Assembly (NCBI GenBank): GCA_026419785.1
Contig: JAODTK010005634.1
Coordinates: 124,001 to 188,000, forward strand
Direction of reading: 5' to 3'
From: Sclerodactyla briareus
Lineage: Eukaryota; Echinodermata; Holothuroidea; Dendrochirotida; Sclerodactylidae
DNA: 64,000 nt
Shown here: positions 4,338 to 60,900 of the stretch, piece after piece
Numbering within the stretch: the stretch's first letter is position 1
Layout of the letters: the number at the start of each line of letters is the position of its first letter
Notes under the pieces: model-generated
The model's database searches: none
The model's input: the letters and a program-made list of their open reading frames with translations, nothing else
What the model was told of the DNA's origin: nothing
Program-made: the position numbers and the translations under genes

Positions 4338-4901
4338 AGATGAATGTGTTGGGGGAGGAGAGGATCTTCACGTTCATCACCAGAGATGAGGTCCCATCTC
4401 AGCATGATTATTGAGGGGATGACATGCTTGCTGTTGGTAACCTTTTCGGGGCATGTTTTGAGCATGATGAAGGAGCGGGGCTTTCACAAGAAATCTACGT
4501 CCTCAATTCATTGAGGACTGCTTCATCCAGATGAGGAGGAACCAGTGAGACAGAATTGGTGTGCTTGACATATGGGCTAGAGTAGGTGTGGCTATCTCTC
4601 AGCAGCAACGAAACCCTTGCTGGTGGGCCCTGGAAGAAAAAGAATGGGCTGGAGGCATTAGAGCCTCCTGAAAGAGGTGATCTGACAGGAGTCTTTGTAC
4701 TCTTGTAATTTAGAGACTTATCATGACACAGATGCATGCGTTGGTGTGGCCTCTAACATTATCGTCTCTCTTTTTACCATGTAGCTGCAATGTCTATGAT
4801 AGGCAAGGCAAATGAAGGGAGGGAACACTTGGGACGGAGCAAAATTTGAAAGACACTGTATCACACATGTGGGTGATGTGAAATTAACACCTTAAGGATA
4901 G

Positions 4902-5477
4902 CTGCAGGTTGGATACAACAGAGGTTATATCATAGAGATTGGAAAACTGTATCTATAAGTCCAAGCCATTTCAATACAATGTTCCTATGTGGAGTTATTG
5001 CCTTCAAAGTTCGGTCCATTATGCAGAGAAATTGGGGAGAAACCCAATTGGACAATAACGCATGACGTAACACTCGGACAACCCGGGAAGTTATGTATTT
5101 CATTGTTTACTTTTTGTTTAATTGTCAACCATCTAGCAGAAGGTCTGTTGTCTTTTTCCTACCAAAGTAACCATTAACAACTACCAACCCACTACAGCAA
5201 TCCTCTTCCATAGATCAAATGCATTATGAAGTGAGAATAATGTGTGAGTTTCAATAGAAACCAAAGAATATTGGCAGAGTTGTGCAAGTATGACATCAAT
5301 TCATAATGCATAATGGGATGCTTTTTGATCTTGCGCAATACACATGCACAAACTTCAATGGACTGTAACTCTGTAACGGAAAGTCGTATGGACTTCGGGT
5401 TTGGACTGACACATTCAGTTTTTCTCCAGCTATTATATGAGGCCTCTTCATGATCCATCCTGCAGTTGTCCTTCAAG
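4902..5477 (+). repeat. Dispersed repeat, about 0.58 kb, copy A
   Basis: Aligns along its whole length, same orientation, with 45303-45896. Shared blocks include GGAAAACTGTATCTATA, GTGGAGTTATT, AGAAATTGGGGAGA, CTACCAACCCACTACAGC, GATGGGATGC-like, GGAAAGTC.TATG and ATCCTGCAGTTG. No TIRs or ORF seen. Probably a transposable element fragment of unknown class. Confidence 0.8.
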
Positions 5478-33807: not shown

Positions 33808-35118
33808 CGTCACGAAGGAACGTCACCCCCGGGATTTATCGGGAGCTGTAATTTAAACGCACGAAAACGATAAAAGGTAAACACGATATGTATACTGACC
33901 ACCGTTGTTCTTCGTCTTGTTTTGTCATTAAAACAAAATGATGGATCATTTGAAATGAGGCGAATATGATAAGCTAAGGATAACAAAATGTCACAGTTCA
34001 AACCGACGTGAATACGGACTTAAACCCTAGTAGAGACTCCCTTTCCGAAAGGAACAACACCGCTATTGGTATCTGTGTGTTAAAATCTTTGAAAGACTCA
34101 CATCTCGCGGTACCCAGCGGATAATGGACGGTTGTCGTTAACACGACGTCACGAAAAAAACCGTCTAGCTGGTAGATCGGAGCTAATTTGACATTGGGTT
34201 ATTATCGCAACGATATAACGTATCGGTATCGGGTTGACGAGGTTCGCTATCCTGAATCTGAAACCATGCTCTTATTTGTAAGGGCAACAATAGTGGGACA
34301 CTGACTCACAGCAAGCGGGCACACCTGGCCATGATCCCATCACGACGTGGGATCTTCCAAGAGGATTCCGTCCGCTTGCTGATCATGTGACATTCAACGC
34401 CCTTCAGCCGCATACTAAGGCATACACGAGACTAAAGGCTCTATGGAAAAGCAACGAGCAGGATATCGGCGCAATGATCACAAGCAGTGATGATATTGGG
34501 ATGAAGTGAAGAGAGCCTCCAGGAGAGAAGTGGAAGCTCAATGCTACCAAGACCTACACAAAGAGTGTCCTAGGAGACCCGCTAAAGGGGCAAAATAACT
34601 CAATAGGTGGGCTCCATTACAAGAGCAGATATCCACAGACTTCTACTTACCAAGTCGACGGCGTGGCAGAAGGTCAGAGGAAGTTGATGAATGAGGAACG
34701 TGCGCGGGGCTCTTCGAGTACCCCGCACCGAAACTGTAAATTGACACCATAGCGCTCATCACAGCGGTACGAGACCAGGCGTTGAATACAAAGAACCACC
34801 GACGACCGCATGAGAGTTGTCGCCTGACAGCAAGTGCAAGATGTGCAAAGTGGCAAATGAGACAGTCAACTGGTCAAATCAAACAGGTTCAAATCGGCTG
34901 CCAGGAAGCTAACCGGGACAGAGTGTCTTGAAGAGACACAACAGCGAGGCAGCAGCCACACTGGTCCATTGTAACCACCAAGCACCAAACCAGGCGCAGT
35001 ACTGGAGCCAGAAAATTACCCCAATACACTGGGTTGCGAGGTTGCGAGTAGATAGGATCATCTCAGCAAGAAGACCTGACAATATCGTACTAGACAAGCC
35101 GGCAAGAAGAGCAAACCG

Positions 35119-36206
35119 TAAGTGGGCTTTCACACCGCCAGCGAAGCGAAGCGAAGCGAAGCGAAGCGAAGCGAAGCCGAAGCGAGCGAAGCGAGGCGAG
35201 GCGAGGCGAACCGAGCGACTACGTAAAACGGAATTGAAAACACATGATCATTCGCCTCGAAAGGTTTTTCACACCCCAGCGAGCGAAGCGAAGCGACTCG
35301 ACTGTTCGCTAGACTCGCTCGGCGTAATGCCAGTTGACCGATTATTTCGCTCGAATCGCTATGACCGACTACACGTGCATTGGTTTTTTTTTGGATGTTT
35401 TCATTGGCAGGCTTAAGAATAGTGCACGTATGTAAGCTTTTGTATGTAGGCGTTTGATCTACTACAGTTAGGTAAAGATGCGTCGAACATGCAGCGGCAA
35501 TCGGCAATGAAGATTTGGTAGCTGAAAAGGAGTCATTGTGGAGAAGAAGTCACCCGCACGTCGGGGTGGAGTCTAACCAAAGGTTTGTTAGGTGTGAATG
35601 CTGTCAGTCCACCACTCTGCCAACGCCCCTGTTCACATCCTAGTTTCCACGTCCAAGTTCCGGGACGTTGACTGACATAGAGGTCAGTCATTTTGGCGGC
35701 CCGAGATGAGTGGTTTGCCGTGCAGTAGACGAGATGTGTTCTATGAATTCACATGACGATGCACCCAACTAGCGCCCTCACTGGGAACTATAAAGAAATA
35801 GAACAAAATGAAAATACCCTACCTCAGATGTATACAATGACGACGGATATAGGAGCGTGCCGGCTTACAGACAGAAAATCGTCGTGTGAACTTTTCTCGA
35901 TCTGTCTCAAGTCCCTCATAAGGTGATTGTAGCCCATATCGCACCTATGAGTGTTGATTTGGTGCACCCACTGTCGTAGCTTTTTTTACGCGCCCATCCA
36001 ACAAGATGAAAGCAGCTACGCGCTTGCTTTCCCACTCTGTACACGATGAAGGGCGCGGTGACTTATAAAGCAACTTGAGAAGTAAAATGGAAACGTCCAT
36101 TCGCCTAAGCTGGATTTCGCTCGCAGTGTAAAGCACCGCGAGGAGTCCAATCGCACCGAGGGATGAAACGGATCGGCTTCGCTTCGTGGCGGTGTGAAGC
36201 ACCTTA
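35119..36206. mobile_element. TA-flanked inverted-repeat element, 1.08 kb (GCGAA-array type), nested in the LINE
   Basis: Element 35121-36204 between TA at 35119-35120 and 36205-36206. Left end AGTGGGCTTTCACACCGCCA; right end, reverse complemented, AGGTGCTTCACACCGCCACG. Next to the left TIR lies a GCGAA array (35141-35210), with a second TCACACC..GCGAA block at about 35267-35300 and GAAGCGAAGCC at the right end. Deleting the element and one TA restores RRAN-R-IDVAISDD in the LINE. An internal minus-strand ORF (35945-36202) is not a recognised transposase. Confidence 0.85.
35141..35210 (+). repeat. GCGAA pentanucleotide array
   Basis: About eight GCGAA units degrading into GCGAG/GCGAGC variants, subterminal in the transposon 35121-36204. 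Confidence 0.9.
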
Positions 36207-38888
36207 TAGATGTGGCGATCTCAGATGACTGAAACTCACAAGTAGCGAAGGAGAGAAGACCATGAAGTATCAAGACCTGAAGTTGGATATTCAAAGGCTA
36301 TTGGATGTGGAGGCAAAGGTTGGTATAGTGGTTGAGTGGGGCCTGTGGGCGTAACCAGAAAAGCCACTTTCTAAGAATTACAGAAACGCACAACTGGAGG
36401 CAGTTGGTGAAACATACTATTTCGAAAAGAGCCCACGTCATAAGGAGAAGTCTAGCCTCTAGAATCCGGGTAGATCCCGGAGGTTGCGAGGAAAGTTGTA
36501 GGTATATAATAATAAAGGGCCCGCAGCCCCCGGAGAGTTGCAGGATCTCATCGGCATCTCTGAGAATCTAAAACTATTCAGTTGTTTCTTTCTCCAAATA
36601 TCTAGCAAGGCAAAATCGTTAGTGAAAATGATCAAAAATATGACTAAAAATCTCCAAAATATCCATATCCGTAGGAGTTCAGGAAAATGTTCATCATAAT
36701 TGCTGGGAAAAAATCATAATATGTACCCCCATACATATATACCCATATATATAGCGATTTATTGCAGTTAAAAGTTCCCACCTACTGCTTCATTTCAGAG
36801 GCCACAAGACCACATCTCGTCAACATTCAAATGAGTAATGTAGAGTAAGGTCATTGTGTGAAATGCCAAACATGAAGCAAACACTGTTTTTAGTCTTGCG
36901 TATACGATGCGGCCGATAGACTTATATTTGAAGTTTTAACATTTCCTGCGTTAAATTGTGGGCGTCCGATTTCCAGTGAGGCGATAACAACTCTCAGAAC
37001 GATTTTTTGTCACTCTTTGATTACCCTGGACTGAAGAAAGCGCTTATGAATACTGACTCTGCCAGAAAAAAACTTTCTTATGTCCCCATGTGTATTCGTA
37101 TCGTTAAAAAAAAGAGAAAACAGTGCCATTTAATGTTTGCCGAAAATTACTATTTGCGTCAGGTGAAAGTCGGTTCTGCCAACCGTGCGATATTGGAATT
37201 ATTTACAGTTGAGGCCATGCACAAATATCACTCAGTGAAAAATAAAATGGAATGTTAGAAGCATGACACTTTTAATTCAAATCGAATATCCTCACCTCGA
37301 CGAGAAAGTAACATTTGCCACTTCGAAAGAAAAGAGAATCATTGGAAGACGTTATTGTTGTATAAAGCAGGTTAGTGTAGCCTACACGAGCAGTTGGGAG
37401 GTTAAAGAAATGCCACAGTCATATGCTACTGCAAGTGTAGTAGAATGAGCAGTATTACCAGAATAACTTTCCCAGTCCAAAGAGAGGGGGGGGGGGCGAA
37501 GAAAATCGGCAGACATTTTGTTTGGCGAAAAGTTGGGCAACATATAGACAACGTTTAAAGATAATTACGGGTGTCCGAACCAAAGCCTGGAAAACGTGCA
37601 TTTCTCTGTAGGTGTCTTGTCTCAGTGAACTGCAAGCGATTGGAGCAACCGTGTATGCCACCCCCTTCTCAAATTTGGGAGTTGAGTGTATAGATTATGC
37701 TAGAGAGGAAAAGTTTAGTGACAGCAAACATATGACTGAAATAGCAACTGGATCATTTTTTTATTGTCCCCACGGGGCTATGACATTTGGCAGAGAAAAA
37801 AATACAAACAATAGAGCTCAATGAGTCATTGTTAAAAATATAATAACTGGGCGATAATGATCCATTAGACAATGTAGACTAAACCACGAACCTGAACAAA
37901 AAAGTCACGAAACATTGTACATTAGTATACCTATTCACAATTTTTTGCACTTAGACAATCTTATGTAAAGTGTTGTGTATAAAACGACCGGATTTGCGTA
38001 TTTGAACGCAATCAGGTGTATTGTATTATTAACATATAGTTGGATAATGTGGCAAGTACGGACTGTGCAGCTGTAGAGCTCACACAATTTTTCCAGGGGA
38101 ATAGTTATTAATAATGTTCAGTATAAATTTTACGTAAAATACAGCGGATTTTAACAGAAACGAAAATGGGCAGGACCTAGGGCCTTCACAATATTTTCCC
38201 TATTCGACCTACCTTAAAATGAGGTGATTTTTAACCTCCACCGGAAAGGGGGGGGGGGGGGCGCAAAATTATTACCCGCTCAATGGGCAACTACCTGGCG
38301 AGTGTCATTGAATTCAAGTAAAAATCTACATAATTATGAATGTTCAACAATAATATCACGATCAAGAGGTTCTGAAGGTTCAAAAGTTTTTTGTCGCAAT
38401 AAAAAGTACCCTGACATGATCGATGTGATCGTATTCAATTGAGCAATTCGCACCTGTCAGGATCCAGAGATGAAGTAGTGGAGGGGGTCACTTTGCCGAT
38501 GTCTCATAGAAATGACAATATGTTCACACAGCAGGTGTTCTGGGTTTTTTTTAAACATGAGAATAAAAATGCACTCCAAAGGTGGGTGCATGGCATGTAA
38601 TATGGCTAGCGAGCGTTAACAGGCAGCCCCCCCCCCCCCCATTGCTGGGAAAAAGCGAAATTTGCAAGCAATAATCGACAGGGACGGTTGCCAGGAAGTA
38701 TCACATAAAGGCGTTTTCGTACATTTCCGACACATCCACAATCTCCAGGCAATTAACAAGCGTACCGGTACAGCAACACTTATTTTTGGAGGAACAACTG
38801 AAAACGACAAAGAGAAGATACATTTAGATTAACGGCTGTACAAGGCAACAAGATGAAAGACATACTCATGCCAGCTATATCATAGGAA

Positions 38889-42720: not shown

Positions 42721-45302
42721 CCCTTCCAGCGTATGTGGACCAGTGTCCTGAACTCGTTACCTTCATCGATAATGGGAAACTACCATCACCAATGGACATC
42801 TCCCATTTTCTTAGGGAAGCTCTCAATTAAGGGTAAGTCCTGTCCAAGCAAAAACACACTCTCCCCTTCATCACATTTGGAATGTGACGTGCTCCATCAC
42901 ACAACCGCCAACATACCCTGCATGCATGAAGGGTTATCAGCTATCTGGATAGTAGGCCCCTCCTTCCTGGAAAAACGAGGTTAAACACGCCGTGATTTCG
43001 GTCCACCTGATTTGTAGGATTGTTGAGTTTGTTCTAACCCACACATACCACTGTTGTTTAATGGCAGCACTATTTATAGACAAGTAGTACGAGCAAATGG
43101 TAAGACTAGGGGGGCTTTCTCCAGCTACGACCCATTCCTTTCATGGCTGGACCTACGAAAACACAAGCATTTGTATGATAGTGCTCTGAACCGTCAATAC
43201 TTTTTTATCGTGTTATTGATGACATTTTTTGTTTAAAAACCTGGCACTATGGGGAGGAGTTCTATCGTGCCTTCATCACTGCCTGCGGTTTTTTGAATGA
43301 AACCCATCAAACGATGCAAATTTTCCAGTACGGGAAATTGAATTTCGGATTTCTTAGTCAGCATCTGTAATGGCACCATATAGACACCATTTGCATGGTA
43401 AACCCACTGATCCCATAGTTATCCGACTTTGCCAGCTCTCATCCGATTCAGCTAAAAAACAGTGGGTATACGCTCACTGTACAGGATACGAGCATAAATA
43501 TTCAACTCAGTCGATAATGTGACAAGCATATAGATCACCATTAGCAGTTATTTGTGCTTTTAATTATTCACTGTGGTGGTTTACACTGCTATTCTTTATA
43601 TCTTTCACATTGAGCACACGAGAAGATCACTTATCACATGTATCGGAGTAGCCGTAGCGTGTGAGGCCTAATAGGACAAAGGGACATTCGAGTTAAGCAA
43701 ACAGGATAGGCCTACAAGCACATATGTATATACGAAACCGTACTCACGGAATTCGTTACGGTCCTACGTTGTTTCACTTCGCTCATTATTCGTGTCATTT
43801 CGCAGCGAAGGGTTAGATTTGCGAGTCCCTGTGTGAATGCTCGGTTTGTTAACTACGAGCTAGGAAGATTCCGTTGTTGATTTCTATCATTCGCCCAGGC
43901 CCTGTTCCGTGTCTCGCAATCGCCATATCCTTGAATGGGAAACTTATGACAAAGATTACCGCGCAAAAAAAAAAATAACTCTCCGCCTCATCAGCAAACA
44001 TCTATCCATCACGAAAGCCCCCATTTTTTAAATTGACTCGAGCATTAGAGTAATGGTCATTGAGAGTATAGGGCCGAAAATAGGTACATTTCATGTCATT
44101 GAATGTTTATAAGAAGCGCAATGTTCAAAAGGCGTTTTTTTCCCAGATATCCTGGTTGACTGGTGAGTTTACAGTACTAGATCACTTCATGGGAAGTAAG
44201 TGTGAAATTCATCAATTTAATTTTTTAGCGCAAAAAAAAGTAAAATATCCAGGTTTTCCTCTTTGGTTCGTATCAGAGTAACAAACACATTTCGAACGAA
44301 CGTTTTGTTTCATCTATTTGTGTATATGAGGTCTTTGACTACGACGCGGGTGTACGCCTTTATCAAGTTGCGGTAACGCCCGACGCAGTCGATTTTTTTT
44401 TCTTCAACACTAGTAAAATCATTGTTTGGCTGGCGTTATATATTCATTGGTTTGCCGTAAATAATGTAAATCTGTAGAGAAGCAATTGGACATCTCGTAT
44501 ACCCATACCCCACAGTACGCATGGTAAATACTGATCATACAGAACACGTGTTAAACCACGAATCACTACCGCGTGTATTTCAACATCAGATCCTGTTCGA
44601 AGAAACTATACCCATATAGTGGAGAGCTCATAGTTATTTACTGAATGGGATATGAAAAGTTGCACGATATCGCGATTCGTCCCACTGTGAATATCGACAA
44701 CCTGTTAAATGACCAAAAAAAAAACCAACAAACTTGTTTCGTATTGACGTAAAAATTAATGGCCAATGACGTTTTAAAATGAACATCTATTGCGTTGACC
44801 ATTCGCATTTTCTCTCTGTGACCTGTAGTTCATTGTAGTAGCTCCGAGTGTGAAATGTATGTCGCCGTAACTCAATTACACATATCACTGGGGCCGTCTG
44901 CATGTGCATACACCACCTACAAATAGATTGCGTAAATATGTCACATGAAGGCCGTGTGATGAGGCGCAACATCGAACGGTATTTCTGATTGATAGTGGTA
45001 TGGTATTGATCGACATATTCTTTGTTAGGGCGTGAAATTAGGATTACGGATCAGGAGAAATGTTCATAAGACTTCGGTGCCATCAACCATTCAGCGTTGT
45101 GTTTACACTATATCAGTTCATGGATTGTGCATTAATTACAGAGCCTACTTTTTATTGACTGTTTCTTGTTAAAGTCAATTTGCCAGTAGTATGTCTTTTG
45201 TAAGATTAGTTACAAGGGATTACAGTTGAATAAACACTTATAAATAAAACTAATCCCGGATGACTTGGGATCGGAAAAACAGGATGAAAAAGTTAAAGGA
45301 CA

Positions 45303-45896
45303 ACTGCCAGGCTGTGGATATAACAGTCGTAATTGTGGAGAATGGAAAACTGTATCTATAGGTCATAACCCCATTTCAATACGAGGTTCCAATGTGGAGT
45401 TATTAGCCTTCACAATTTGGGCCATTAGGCAAAGAAATTGGGGAGAGAGGAAATACCAATTGCGCAATTAACGCATGGACGTCACACATGGACCAAACAG
45501 GAAAAATTATGTTATGTATTTGATTGTTTCATTTTGTGGAATGAGCCAACATTTAGCCGAAAGTTCGGTTTGTCCTTCTCTCAAACAATGTAAAATCAAC
45601 ACCTACCAACCCACTACAGCGATCCTATCCCAAGACTAAACTTATCGAAGTGAAAATAATGTGGGGATTTCAAAAAAAAGAAACAAAGAATGTTGGCAGG
45701 GTTGTGCAAATTGACATCATTATTTAATTTGCATGATGGGATGCATTGTGATCTTGCAAACACATGCTTCACATACCAACAAACTTCAAATGACTATAAC
45801 TCTAAACGGAAAGTCCTATGAACTTTCGGTTTGGACGGACGTATTCCGTTTACCAGCTATTAAATTATATACAAATCATCCTGCAGTTGGCCTTTA
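45303..45896 (+). repeat. Dispersed repeat, about 0.59 kb, copy B
   Basis: Second copy of the sequence at 4902-5477, same orientation, diverged by many substitutions and small indels. Its left part begins CTGCCAGGCTGTGGATA and its right end reads ATCATCCTGCAGTTGGCCTT. Confidence 0.8.
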
Positions 45897-46076
45897 ATTC
45901 AACAGGAGAAATGACTGATGCAGTTTTGCAGGACTTTAGTGATCGAGTTAGGCGGGTGAGCATGGGTCCATTCCCTGTGGTCGCTCGCTCGTATGAGGAG
46001 GGGTGCTTTAAGATGGCATGTAGGTGGATAGTATGAGTGGCCTTCCGCGGTCACATGCTATCATAAGTGGGTGTTT

Positions 46077-54070: not shown

Positions 54071-54668
54071 ATGGACATTTCTACCAATTCAACCGATGAG
54101 GTACTCGAATGACATTGATGACATCATCGTTTGCGTCATCGGATGTATGACGTCGACCACGACGTCATTCACACCGTCGACGAACGTTCCCGACTTACGA
54201 CGCTGGGACGACGCCACCTGGATCCTGACTAGTGCCTTCATCATTTTCACGATGCAATCGGGGTTCGTCTCCTCGAGGCTGGGAGCGCCTCCCGGAAAAA
54301 CGAGGTCAACATCATGGTCAAGAACGCCGTGACGTCCTCTTCGCGGATTCACTACTGGATGTTCGGGTTCGGGCTCAGCTTCGGCGAGGACGAGGGCACG
54401 AACGCGTTCCTCGGGGTTGGCTACTTCTTCGTCGACTCGGCGCGGAACGAGCAGGACATCGGGCATCTCTTCTCGCTGTTCTTCTTCCAGGCGTCGTTCG
54501 CGACTACCGCGACGACGATCGTAAGCGGTTCGATGGCGGAGCGAACCAAGCTAGAGAGCTACATCCTATTCTCCTTCCTGAACACCTTCATCTACTGTAT
54601 CCCAGCCCACTGGATCTGGAGCGAACACTACGGCTGGCTCAAGAAGATGGGGGCCACCGACATAGCAG
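54071..54668 (+). CDS. amt: Amt2 first coding exon (long)
   Basis: Spans what Amt1 divides among its first four exons: N-terminus to the end of helix 4-5, ending ATDIAG|gtgagt. Start uncertain: ATG 54071 (MDISTNSTDEVLE, then needs one base to continue as DIDDII), 54096 or 54147; I prefer 54071 because it has G at +4 and yields an AMT-like acidic and polar N-terminus. One C is missing at GFV(LL)EAG and three single bases within AVDVLFAGFTYW. The 54314-54739 frame runs past the donor into intron. Confidence 0.92.
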
Positions 54669-57600
54669 GTGAGTATAGCTCGGGCCGAGTTTATAAAGGA
54701 CCTATGATCTATTATTCGTATGTGTTAGTTGGGTTGTAGTGTAATAGGGTCGTCAATGAGGATTTTATTTCTCCCCACCCATCAGAATAAAATAAGCTAA
54801 ATACAATGTTTCCAGGCGTGGACCCTAGTTGTCCGTAGACTACCTGAATGCATCAGAGTTAAATTTTTCTCTACTAATTTTGAATGAAAAAATCACCGAT
54901 GCACCAAATGTACTAAAACTATAGGTTTTTACACCCTATTAGGGCCTGATTAATTTTGATGTGGGAATCTTTCACTTTACTAGTTTTACAAGGTCGTCAG
55001 ACGCTCGCCGGTGTGACCGCAAATGACAAAAGTCCATTAGGCAAATGGGAACACGTATACCAAGCAGGAGCTTCATCAGTCAAGGCCTGGTCGCGCTGAC
55101 GTGCCTACGAGCATAAATTAGGCAAAATATGAATTTCTCAATTTTGTACCAAAATATTCCGTGGTCAGTCCAAATAATGAGGCTTCTGTAGTCCTCATAG
55201 TGATATCTTAACCGGGCAAAACTCCTGATCTATCGTGTTCGCGAGGGTTATAGAGTTCAATGAATTAAGCACTCACTGCTGAAGGAAATTATTCATGTAC
55301 ACTTTCAATACATAAACAGAATCAGTTGAATAAAAAGAGGGCTTATACTCAGTCTAAGTATCTGTGTCAATTTCTTCAAATTCTTTATGAGGAATTCACC
55401 AGGTATTTGGGTATGGATAGTCTGAGTGGTTTACAGTACATCGCAGCCTAGTAGTTAATGGATTCCATTATCCTTCCGATGCTATCTATGAATATAAATA
55501 AGATCTACAATGCTGCTTATAATCATATGTGCTCCTTCACCACGCGGTTGTATATCCGGCTTCGATGGTCACGGCCGGCTGAAGAAATTCGAAGAGCTTC
55601 ACCTGTGCAACCGACTGACGAAAATTGGCTGTAATCCACTAAACAACAGGAGACTGCCCACGGTCTGCTTAATCTTGAACATTCTTCCCCGATACTGATT
55701 ATTACATACTATGTCTACTCTTCTATGTGTGAATGAGTTGGCAATAGAAAACACGGTTCCCTCTGGTTCGGAGCAGAGGAGTTGTTTCTATTATTGTAAA
55801 CATTGATATGAAACAAACGGTCCTGGAATGATTCTGAAAGGCCGTATAATGTTTTTTTTCAGTAACAGTCTAAAAGACAACCCTTGTAGTGGACTTTGAT
55901 TGGAGTGTAACGTCACATACCTTTGTCCCTGTATAGTGGAATGAACTACAATATCAGGGTAGTAATAATGGAACAGCACATTCATTGTCTTCACGCTGCT
56001 GGTACTATTCCAACGATCTTGTAGCCTTTTTTAGTCCTTTTCCCGCAAGTCTGCATTGCTTAGTCTGTTAGTGTCACTATGCTTCATGATATATGTTCTA
56101 GAACAACTTAAATATCAAACCAACCGGAAACTAGACGTCACTAATAAAGATGCCAATGTTTTAATGGAAATATTTACTTCCTCATTGGCAATATTGTTTG
56201 TGTACATTCTCAAGCCGATTCTTGATCAGATTGTTTTTCTCTCAGGTTTTGCCCCATTTTGTGTTTTTCGGGGGGGGTCAAAATGTCTGGCCTTGTATTT
56301 AAAACATGACAAAGAAATCATACATTATTCCGAAAACGGTTGGCCGTCTTCTTCTCCAATATCAAATATACATTTTTGTCATATGCGGACCATAAACGAC
56401 ATGTTTATTCCCCTTCACTAATTATTCATTGAGCTATTTATATAACACCTCTATGGAAACAAGGAATATCTTATCAAGAGGTTTCTCCCCGGTTCTCCAT
56501 GATCTTATGCTTATTGTCTGGAAAATTGGTTTCCCATTCGGGATAGAGGTTTTGCCATGCGGAATCACATCACTTACTCTCTCCGACATCATGTCAATTA
56601 ATTTAACGAATACATCCCGCAATTAACCGCTATTTATTTCTAAAAAGTTTGCCATTTCAAGGGACTGATCAATTATTGGTACATAGGTGCTGTAAACAAT
56701 GTCAGTTTTAAGATTCCAGCATTACTACAGCTGTCGACATCATCAGCATCATCATCCCAAAACCACCCATCATCTCATCATCAATCACCATCATCATCAT
56801 CATTATCGTTATCGTTATTGCCCTCGTCGTCGTCGTTCATCACAAATCATCATCATCATCATCACTTTCATCATTATCACTGTTTTTTACGCATCATCAT
56901 CATCATCATCCTCATCATCAATCATCATCATCATCATCATCATCGCATCATACATCATCATCATCCTCATGCATCATCATCATCATCACATCACCATCAT
57001 CATCATCGTCATCATCATCATCCCGTCATCATCATCATCATTATCGTATCGTCATCGGTCATCATCACATCATCATCATCACATCATCGTCTCGTCCACA
57101 TCATCAGCATACATCATTCATTATACTCCTTAGCATCTTATCATCATTCATCGTCATCATCATCATTATCATCATTATCTCATTATCATCATATTCGTCA
57201 ATCATCAGCATTATCATCATTATCTCATCATCTCCATTATCGTCATCCTCATTATCATAATCATCATCATTCGTCAATCATCATCTCCTCATCATCATAT
57301 CGTTCATCGTCACATCATCATCATCATCATCACCGTCCTTAATCGTCCAATCGTCATCATCATCATCATCCTTATATCGTCATCGTCATCATCGTCATCA
57401 TCATCATCATTATCATCCAATCGCATCGTCAATCGTCATCATCATCACATCATCAATCATATCACACCGCATCATCATCATCATCATCATACACAGCATA
57501 TCGTTCATCATCATCATCGTCAGCAATCAGCATCATCATCATCATTATTTACCGGGGTCTTCTCATCATTATCTCATCATCATCAGTTGCGTCATCTACA

Positions 57601-57812
57601 TCATCATTATCATTATCCTTATTCTCATTAATTATCATCATCATCAGTAATATCATTATCACACCATCACATCCATTTATCCATCATCACATCATTTATC
57701 GTCACTTCTCTTCTTCCCCATGTGATCACTTAGTCAGTCCTATTATCTCATCCATGGTGGCATGTCATCATCATCTCATTATCGCAGATCATCATCATTA
57801 TCGTCATCATCA

Positions 57813-57849
<37 letters not shown>

Positions 57850-57937
57850 TGATCATCACATCATTAATCGTCATCATCATCATCAGCGTCATCGTGTCAT
57901 CACGTCATCATCGTCATCATCATCATCATCATTATCG

Positions 57938-57972
<35 letters not shown>

Positions 57973-60900
57973 TATGTCATTATCGTCATCGTCATCATCA
58001 ATCCTCACCAGTCCACCATCATTCACTTTTATCATTATCAACCCTCCGTTAGCATTCACCATCATTATCCTATCATCTTCGACCCGTTCGTTTGCTTCCT
58101 CATCTCCATTCCATAATCGTAAACACGATCGTCGCCTCTTCATTATCATCGCTTATCACTACACACAGCATCCTCTTCTCCACCTTTCTATCATCAAAAC
58201 CACCATTATCATCACTGTCGTTTTCAATAATCCGTCTTCCTGCATATGTACTGCTTCGTAATGCGCTATGATGCAGTAAGCTTAGTGATTCGTATCCCTT
58301 AACAAGTGCGTCAGTGGTTCACCTGGTTGGGCGGGACTGACGCGGGCGTTGGTCCTAAACGGGGTGATGCTTGGACCACGCAACGGACGATTCGACAAGG
58401 AAGGGGAAGCCCCCAAGATGAGGCTCTCCGACCAACGCCATCTTTGGACTCTTCAATGCTTCTGGTGAGGATATGTCTGAAATGTTCTCTAAACTGTTTC
58501 GCACTCCAAAAAATGATCATCGCTCAAACAATTTTGAATAAACTATTTTGACATCTATGTCAAGGCGAACTGGAATGCTAAACATTGACTCAAATTCCCC
58601 GAGGGAATGAATTGTTGTTAAATGATTCAACGACTAATGTGTTGATAATTTTGTTCAAAGGGCTAATTGAAAAATCAGTAGTAATTCCTATATTGAACAC
58701 TCTGGCTTCGCATTAATGATAATGAAAGTGAGAGTTAAAACTCCCCGTAAAAACATTGAAAGTAGTCGGAGATATGTACTACTATTCTATACATTTACGT
58801 AATAAACAAAAGAGATGAGGAATAGACATAAATAAGAGAGTTACCCTACTAATACGAAACTCAAGTCTTAATTTGTTTGATCTAGTATGCTTATAGTTTG
58901 TAATATAATCACAGGGAAGCTTCCTAACCTGCGGGGTATTCATTACTCTCCCTATCATTCGTTCGAAAAAATGTTCTAGAGTTCTCAGCCCTCGGATGTC
59001 CACGCTGCCATTAACATCAGCTTGGAGGCCCGCGAGGAAGGATAGCGCTGCAGGTATTCGAAGTCACAAGTTCAAAACTCTTTGTGGCTTCAACGGTTGT
59101 CGACATTATGGGTATTTAGAAATGTCAGAATTACAGCACCAGTAATTGCATGAGACCACATCAAAATGGTAAGAATATAGGTATTTTGTTCAGAGCAATG
59201 GAGCAAGACGATTAATTTCAAACATAACGAATCAACCTGTCCACTTTGCTAACCACCGGGCTAGATAAGGCCGGTCATTGTTGGACGTGTCTTCATACAA
59301 GGGGACAATGGGAACTCAGTGGTTTAGGATAACCACGTTTCCCTAACCTATTGTGCCATCACTTTCGCCGGACTATAGTACAACGTGTTTAGCAATTGTT
59401 ACCTACTGAACACATGCCAGTCAGCAATATTCTTTTGATTATATATGATATGAACATCTAGTAAAATAACCGTATGTTCAATCTAACTTAGTTAGTTAAG
59501 AAGGTCATGTAAATGTCAATTGTTTCGACTTTCTCTTCTCTTTCTCAAAATTTATAAGCAGAATACGCTCAAGATGTTAGCACGGTTTGGGTAGGCATTT
59601 CAACGTTTAATCCACTGTTTTCTAGAGTGTATTTCAACTGTTCACGCGATGTAAATTGTGAAGGATTATGCGGAGTAGTATTAACTATCCTTGATTGAGT
59701 AATTGCTGTCATCCCATAGTTTGGAATCGATTAGCTAAAAGTAGCATTTCAGAAGTGCGGAGGGGGGTTTTGCAGTATGGCATTGCAAAGTAAAGAGTTT
59801 TATTTTCAAGCATCAATATAGAGCAAATTATAATAAGTAATTAAAAATAACTTTAAGATGATGACGAACGACCATGGAAAATGCAACAGCTCAAATTTAT
59901 AACAGTTTATGGCTCGTCATGATGAAGATATTCCATAGAACCCTAGCGGATATCTTTGTCTTGATTTGACTTATAAACACTGTGTTCATGGGAACCCATT
60001 CTCCATGTCTGCAATTCGAATAGGCCCTATAGCATACTTGAACACTTCCACTGTGCATGCTCACGTGAGCTAGGCTTAGGGAGTAATGACCGCACTCGAG
60101 CATCGGTGCTCATGGAATTCTCAAATTTTTCGAACAGCAGGACCCAACGGCGTTGCTACAGCGGCGGGAGGAAGCGTTGAGCGTTGTTTCTACTCCTAGT
60201 TTCTTTCTTCTTGGCTCACATGTCTGCAATAAACATCTTTAAACTATGTTTGGAAAATCTGAATATTTATTTTATCCATCGCAGTGGATGAACAAAGTCC
60301 CAGTAACTACTGGTAAATTGGATAACGTGACTGTTGATTAGTTGCTGATTGTAGTACTGGAAATGAGCCCGAACTTGGGTCGAGATCACAGAAGATTTGG
60401 TTAGATTGGTTATGGCTCCAATCGGCAAATAAATTCCGGGTCAATATGACCCAACCGTTTCCAGAATCGTTATATTACCGAGCTCCTCACATGGATCAAT
60501 TATCGTAGGCTGATACATTTCGAAACTCTTCACACCCTCTAGATCGCTCGGTAGGCGGGTTATAGCACCCCATCTAACGTGTGATTGAGGTAGTACAAAC
60601 ACAAAAAAAAGTTGTTCATTGTGGCATTATAGTAGATTTACCGCATATTCACACATGTATCTTTTCATTACATTCCTACTTGGCTTTTATTTGTGTGGGA
60701 TCCAAGGGGTTCTACGGACAGTACCTGTGGGGATCAGAGGGGAAAGCCATTGGGCGTTACATGACCTTCCAATTTGGGGGCAGAAATTTTTGCCCGGCCG
60801 GATTTGTCAGTCATCAGAATCCACCAGTCAGCAGAAAAATTCAGGCATTTCCTCACTTTGCTTTTCTTCCCAATTTTTTCCCATATTTACAACGCCTGGT

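Follow-up and report, generated by a model that had tools for sequence, protein, structure and literature searches.

A probable PIF/Harbinger-type deletion derivative nested in a decayed RLE-type LINE of the holothurian Sclerodactyla briareus

LINEs of the RLE type (R2 and relatives) show a PDX12-14D spacing. Their CCHC and KX2KY motifs are taken here as defined in PMC5678591. PIF/Harbinger transposons, of the PHIS superfamily, have two genes, one for a transposase and one for a Myb-like (Myb/SANT) or MADF protein, according to PMC9710019. PMC4482050 gives their target duplication as 3-bp TWA, and describes the transposases as similar among PHIS groups. ISL2EU, also of the PHIS superfamily, has an A|AT|T duplication and a YqaJ partner, in contrast to TWA and MADF as read for the family described here.

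The window is a stretch of 64,000 nucleotides from S. briareus, and the genome searched is the assembly of 319,486,128 bases in 3,171 contigs, in which the window is C2877:124001-188000. An element of 1,084 bp at 35121-36204 interrupts an RLE-type LINE, itself decayed, in its C-terminal part, and a TA abuts the element on both sides, at 35119-35120 and 36205-36206. Deleting 35121-36206 yields ...PDNIVLDKPARRANR-IDVAISDD followed by a stop, for a joined reading of RRANR-IDVAISDD. The sequence-only reading took this for a DNA transposon that had inserted into a LINE of the RLE type; re-reading the window reproduces its coordinates, sequence and join, and the nesting is real. Our main reading, which we hold with a probability of roughly 0.85, is that an internally deleted, non-autonomous PIF/Harbinger transposon was cut and pasted into an ageing LINE at TAA, duplicating TWA, and later decayed. 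The parts of the locus, with the evidence for each in brackets, are as follows.

34511 to 35120, plus strand: 5' side of the host LINE, with linker, CCHC remnant, the PD half of PD-X14-D and decayed C-terminal coding (genome matches, frames, consensus)
35121 to 36204, no strand given: putative non-autonomous PIF/Harbinger-type DNA transposon, 1,084 bp, ends AGTGGGC...GCACCT (sequence, inverted ends, family copies)
35121 to 35153, plus strand: left terminal inverted repeat, outer (arms and other copies' ends)
35140 to 35218, no strand given: AGCGA subterminal tandem array, 16 copies
35267 to 35296, plus strand: inner second copy of the left end, present in other copies too
35515 to 35559, plus strand: MADF (Myb/SANT-like) gene-start remnant, LVAEKESLWRRSHPH (11/15 identical to the L088 ORF)
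35875 to 36048, minus strand: PIF/Harbinger-like transposase gene-start remnant, two internal stops (consensus match and L088 match)
36120 to 36137, minus strand: inner second copy of the right end, decayed (by-eye reading against other copies)
36176 to 36204, minus strand: right terminal inverted repeat, outer (arms and other copies' ends)
35119 to 35121, no strand given: left target-site copy, read as TAA, the A run with the element's first base being one A short (sequence, empty-site consensus GTAATAG, inference)
36205 to 36206, no strand given: right target-site copy, TA read as TAA minus one A, the next T being that of the LINE's TAGATG (sequence, GTAATAG, inference)
36207 to 36473, plus strand: 3' side of the host LINE, with the second catalytic D (IDVA) and the KTMKY motif, up to the expected stop codon (frames, relatives, consensus)

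The LINE 5' flank as a query has 68 matches in the genome, a count that includes the window and in which one locus may contribute several pieces. Nineteen other LINE loci were cut out, 68-82% identical to the window, with the earliest match outside the window beginning at query base 132. Of the 19, 17 align continuously over the insertion point without the element; the exceptions are L068, which is gapped there, and L081, which fails to align. One locus, L080, spans the point, yet has a different insertion shortly downstream. The consensus of the 19 has a CX2CX8HX4C knuckle (CRLCKVADETVNHLISAC), PD-X14-D (PDIIVIDKQERRATVID) and KTMKY, so that the host is like RLE-type LINEs in CX2CX8HX4C, PD-X14-D and KX2KY of its genome consensus, the window copy itself being decayed. 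Pfam gives zf-RVT alone, sub-threshold at 17.8 bits against a cut-off of 27.5, and the best PDB match is an R2 protein, weak at E = 0.16. No match to reverse transcriptase came from four LINE frames further upstream or from a piece of the consensus, and that domain was not recovered. The motifs thus support an RLE-type host, with no strong database match.

The LINE relatives also bear on what the join can say about the duplication. The consensus across the junction is RRATVIDVAIPADMN (GAGCAACAGTAATAGATGTGG), and at the insertion point it is GAGCAACAGTAATAGATG (RATVID), where the window has GAGCAAACCG-TA...TA-TAGATG. The window has one A gained upstream of the junction and one A missing at the junction, and the frame is open over the junction because these two indels compensate; it meets a stop eight codons further on. 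The joined reading had been taken as exactly the expected continuation of the LINE, which the consensus contradicts, and the unbroken frame is partly luck. By-eye counting of the junction bases in the 17 crossing relatives gives GTAA in 13, GTAT in 3 (L071, L074, L076) and GGAT in 1 (L072), with a consensus of GTAATAG at the target; in L071, L074 and L076 one A of the pair is gone without any insertion. Either a 2-bp TA duplication minus one A, or a 3-bp TAA duplication minus one A per side, yields the same joined sequence, hence the frame cannot separate the two. How long a target-site duplication was, in other words, is not proved by a frame that stays open over the join.

The element ends are the inverted repeats TTCACACCGCCA and TGGCGGTGTGAA, paired at 12/12, plus a 14-base pair of arms, and are imperfect overall. 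At up to one mismatch the 12-base arm occurs in the window at these two sites only (expected 0.35; 3 of 100 shuffles reach two). With the element as query the genome has 53 DNA matches, a number that counts the window and several pieces per copy, and the ten best others are 72-84% identical. Searching with the end pattern at up to 3 mismatches finds 32 genome matches, against 0 for the reversed control. Most of the listed ends are AGG(T/G)GC...GCACCT, with AGGTGC or AGGGGC on the left, where the window has AGTGGGC; one subfamily of copies has AGGGGCTTTCACACCGCAAGCGATTC as its left end. Terminal inverted repeats starting with A or G are as expected of PIF/Harbinger. The sequence-only reading had defined the ends to the base; they are right to within about one base, and other copies have them too. 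Many copies have an inner second end, on the left about 75-105 bp inward (about 140 in the window) and on the right about 62-75 bp inward, a doubling in which the family differs from PIF/Harbinger and its Tourist-like derivatives.

A few matches to the ends lie elsewhere. The 17-base end pattern occurs at 8 loci on viral contigs, which we take as chance because they match the element region over no more than 19 bases. A literature text search with a 13-base end sequence had a sole match, to a paper on a Vibrio small RNA. At L066 1400-3025 (G000:C3098 near 152917) there is a tandem array with units of about 95-110 bp by eye, several starting with the family end motif (GATTGTTTAGGTGCTTTCACACCGCCAGCTACTGTAAC...); the array has the look of a satellite that started out from the end of a transposon.

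What kind of element this is can be asked of its coding remnants. Remnants of two gene starts survive in family copies and face each other, that of a transposase on the minus strand and that of a MADF gene on the plus strand. Twenty-three aligned pieces, 22 of them from 17 other loci and one from the window, gave a consensus for their 3' halves. Its minus strand reads MYRVKNKRVAAFILLDGRVKKRRQWVHHINTR and, one frame over, ...ERYGEYNHLMRDLRQDREKFHDYFRLYPDTFDELHELIRHRIQRR, which we take to be the N-terminus of PIF/Harbinger transposases. This consensus has 32 genome matches, with pieces of a single copy counted apart, and the window is among them at C2877:159875-160048 on the minus strand (E = 2.9 × 10−7, 53% identity to the family consensus, two internal stops). 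Pfam is silent on the transposase start, and its PDB matches are chance only (best E = 0.072, ion channels); nor did Pfam give a transposase match for any of eight pieces taken from the element and its relatives. Reading this start as PIF/Harbinger draws on its motif together with the MADF partner. That partner is clearest in a diverged relative, L088 on C1216, where one strand bears this same start of the transposase (18/26 identical to that of the window) and the other a MADF ORF. The L088 ORF scores 28.1 bits against PF10545 (MADF_DNA_bdg), over a cut-off of 22, covering profile positions 1-37 of 84, so the second gene of PIF/Harbinger is seen in the family as the start of its domain only. 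Weak, below-cut-off matches of family pieces to DUF5090 and SNAPC3 are disbelieved.

The family had been called uncharacterised, and if that meant of unknown kind, the gene remnants point instead to PIF/Harbinger. The likeness to PIF/Harbinger and its Tourist-like derivatives lies in TWA as the best-supported duplication, ends starting with A, remnants of a transposase and a MADF gene, and the form of a non-autonomous deletion derivative. It differs from them in that DDE exons were not seen in the pieces read, where a putative DDE_Tnp_4 transposase shows as an N-terminal remnant on which Pfam and PDB are silent, and in that no autonomous partner was located. No copy with both family ends and a DDE domain (PF13359, DDE_Tnp_4) was found in the genome, and all 14 genome matches to PF13359 are on contigs where end searches at up to 3 mismatches found no family end. 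The one PF13359 locus fetched of the 14, L087 (G000:C3170:232000-237500), is of the ISL2EU type: it combines a DDE_Tnp_4 exon with a YqaJ domain (E = 1.4 × 10−8), and no end resembling those of the window-element family was found in it. The 6.6-kb copy on C1338 (L020) was tried as an autonomous element and rejected, there being no PF13359 on the contig and no transposase match in the two of 13 listed ORFs that were scanned. Between element bases 857 and 861 it has about 5.6 kb of extra DNA (L020 1961-7580), which for those same reasons is probably a further insertion nested in the element.

The duplication itself we compare over the 17 copies in which both ends can be read. Reading and pairing were done by eye, with ends presumed to pair with the nearest suitable one on the contig, up to 6.6 kb apart. 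The count leaves out one-ended copies, L033 (two ends from oppositely oriented pieces), L061 (tandem left ends, no outer right end) and L088 (diverged, TGA against TAA or AAG). In L056 and L065 the boundaries were set so as to accommodate bases missing from the end motif, and L020 is read strictly, as no match, in the main figure. The left and right triplets are:

window GTA/TAT; C1048 TTA/TTA; C1338 TTA/TAG; C2663 TAA/TAA; C2354 TAA/TAA; C1832:250008 TTA/TTA
C1832:334143 GTA/TAC; C1127 TTA/TTA; C2341 TTA/TAC; C3115 GTA/TCA; C837 TAA/TAA; C1059 TAA/TTA
C2532 TTA/TCA; C3085 TAA/TTA; C2979 GAA/TTA; C1530 CTG/CTA; C2193 GTA/ATA

Identical 3-bp flanks occur in 6/17 copies, all of them TTA or TAA, where shuffles give 3.0 (P = 0.029). 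Without the window the figure is 6/16 (P = 0.041), and with a one-base tolerance for C1338, taking L020 as a match, it is 7/17 (P = 0.010). The test is modest at these values, and its main weakness is the 11/17 copies in which the triplets are not identical, although mutated duplications are expected because the copies are old. Identical 2-bp flanks, all TA, are found in 4/17 copies (the window, C1338, C1832:334143-337904 and C2341), which is chance, as shuffles give 4.1 (P = 0.73). The family shows the 3-bp TWA of PIF/Harbinger in 6/17 copies, while the window copy alone reads GTA/TAT, with TA common to both sides. A different duplication in other copies was named in advance as grounds against a TA target duplication, and that is what the TTA or TAA triplets amount to; the supposed proof of TA falls, given also that a decayed 3-bp duplication leaves the same empty site.

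A Tc1/mariner-like (Stowaway-type) element would make a true 2-bp TA duplication, and by strict reading the four copies just listed have TA on both sides. At the window site alone this reading is the cheaper by one base change, as TAA costs two single-A losses and TA costs one. Across the family it fares worse, since identical 2-bp flanks are at chance, the six TTA/TTA or TAA/TAA copies would demand an element-end length that depends on the site, and remnants of MADF and a transposase start are the PIF/Harbinger gene pair. We consider a Tc1/mariner-like origin very unlikely, while placing it marginally ahead of the other alternatives. A single decayed copy, as here, can suggest the wrong transposon superfamily.

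Some other group of PHIS (ISL2EU, Pangu or NuwaII, with AT, ANT or C|TNA|G duplications), as against PIF/Harbinger proper, comes just behind it and is likewise very unlikely: the similarity of transposases across PHIS groups (PMC4482050), the ISL2EU copy in the same genome, and the TCA, GTA and CTA flanks of some copies would all suit it, against which the identical triplets are solely TTA or TAA, the partner remnant is MADF, and YqaJ had no match among the family ORFs scanned. Least probable of all, in our judgment, is a loose stagger, in which most copies duplicated TWA and a minority (the window, C1832:334143-337904, perhaps C1338 and C2341) truly TA only. If true, it would be intermediate between the 2-bp and 3-bp PHIS groups, perhaps allowed by the doubled ends. 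For the window, an ordinary 3-bp duplication seems more likely than a 2-bp TA, and TAA fits the site because the LINE target consensus is GTAATAG.

Under the PIF/Harbinger reading, then, the element would have inserted by cut and paste at TAA of an RLE-type LINE copy that was already ageing, presumably with a 3-bp stagger that duplicated three bases (TWA). Going by the superfamily, an autonomous relative would have supplied the transposase and MADF protein that moved it in trans, the element itself keeping just two gene starts that face each other from its two ends. Later decay of the transposon and of the target-site copies, with two single-base losses, would have left a scar resembling a 2-bp TA. 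The divergences fit an element younger than the LINE that holds it, both consensuses being rough: the window element is 17.5% off its own consensus over 627 sites (K2P 0.20), and the host LINE copy 23.7% off its own over 784 sites (K2P 0.29). This reading would add to the genome a Harbinger-type family of low copy number whose ends are doubled.

Elsewhere in the window there are LINEs and microsatellites, and a dispersed repeat pair at 4894-5476 and 45296-45897 that is 74% identical over about 620 aligned bases. An imperfect CAT-repeat tract of 1.26 kb with several frames open lies at 56738-58000, and an ammonium transporter exon (PF00909, E = 1.1 × 10−33) is found at 54233-54739.
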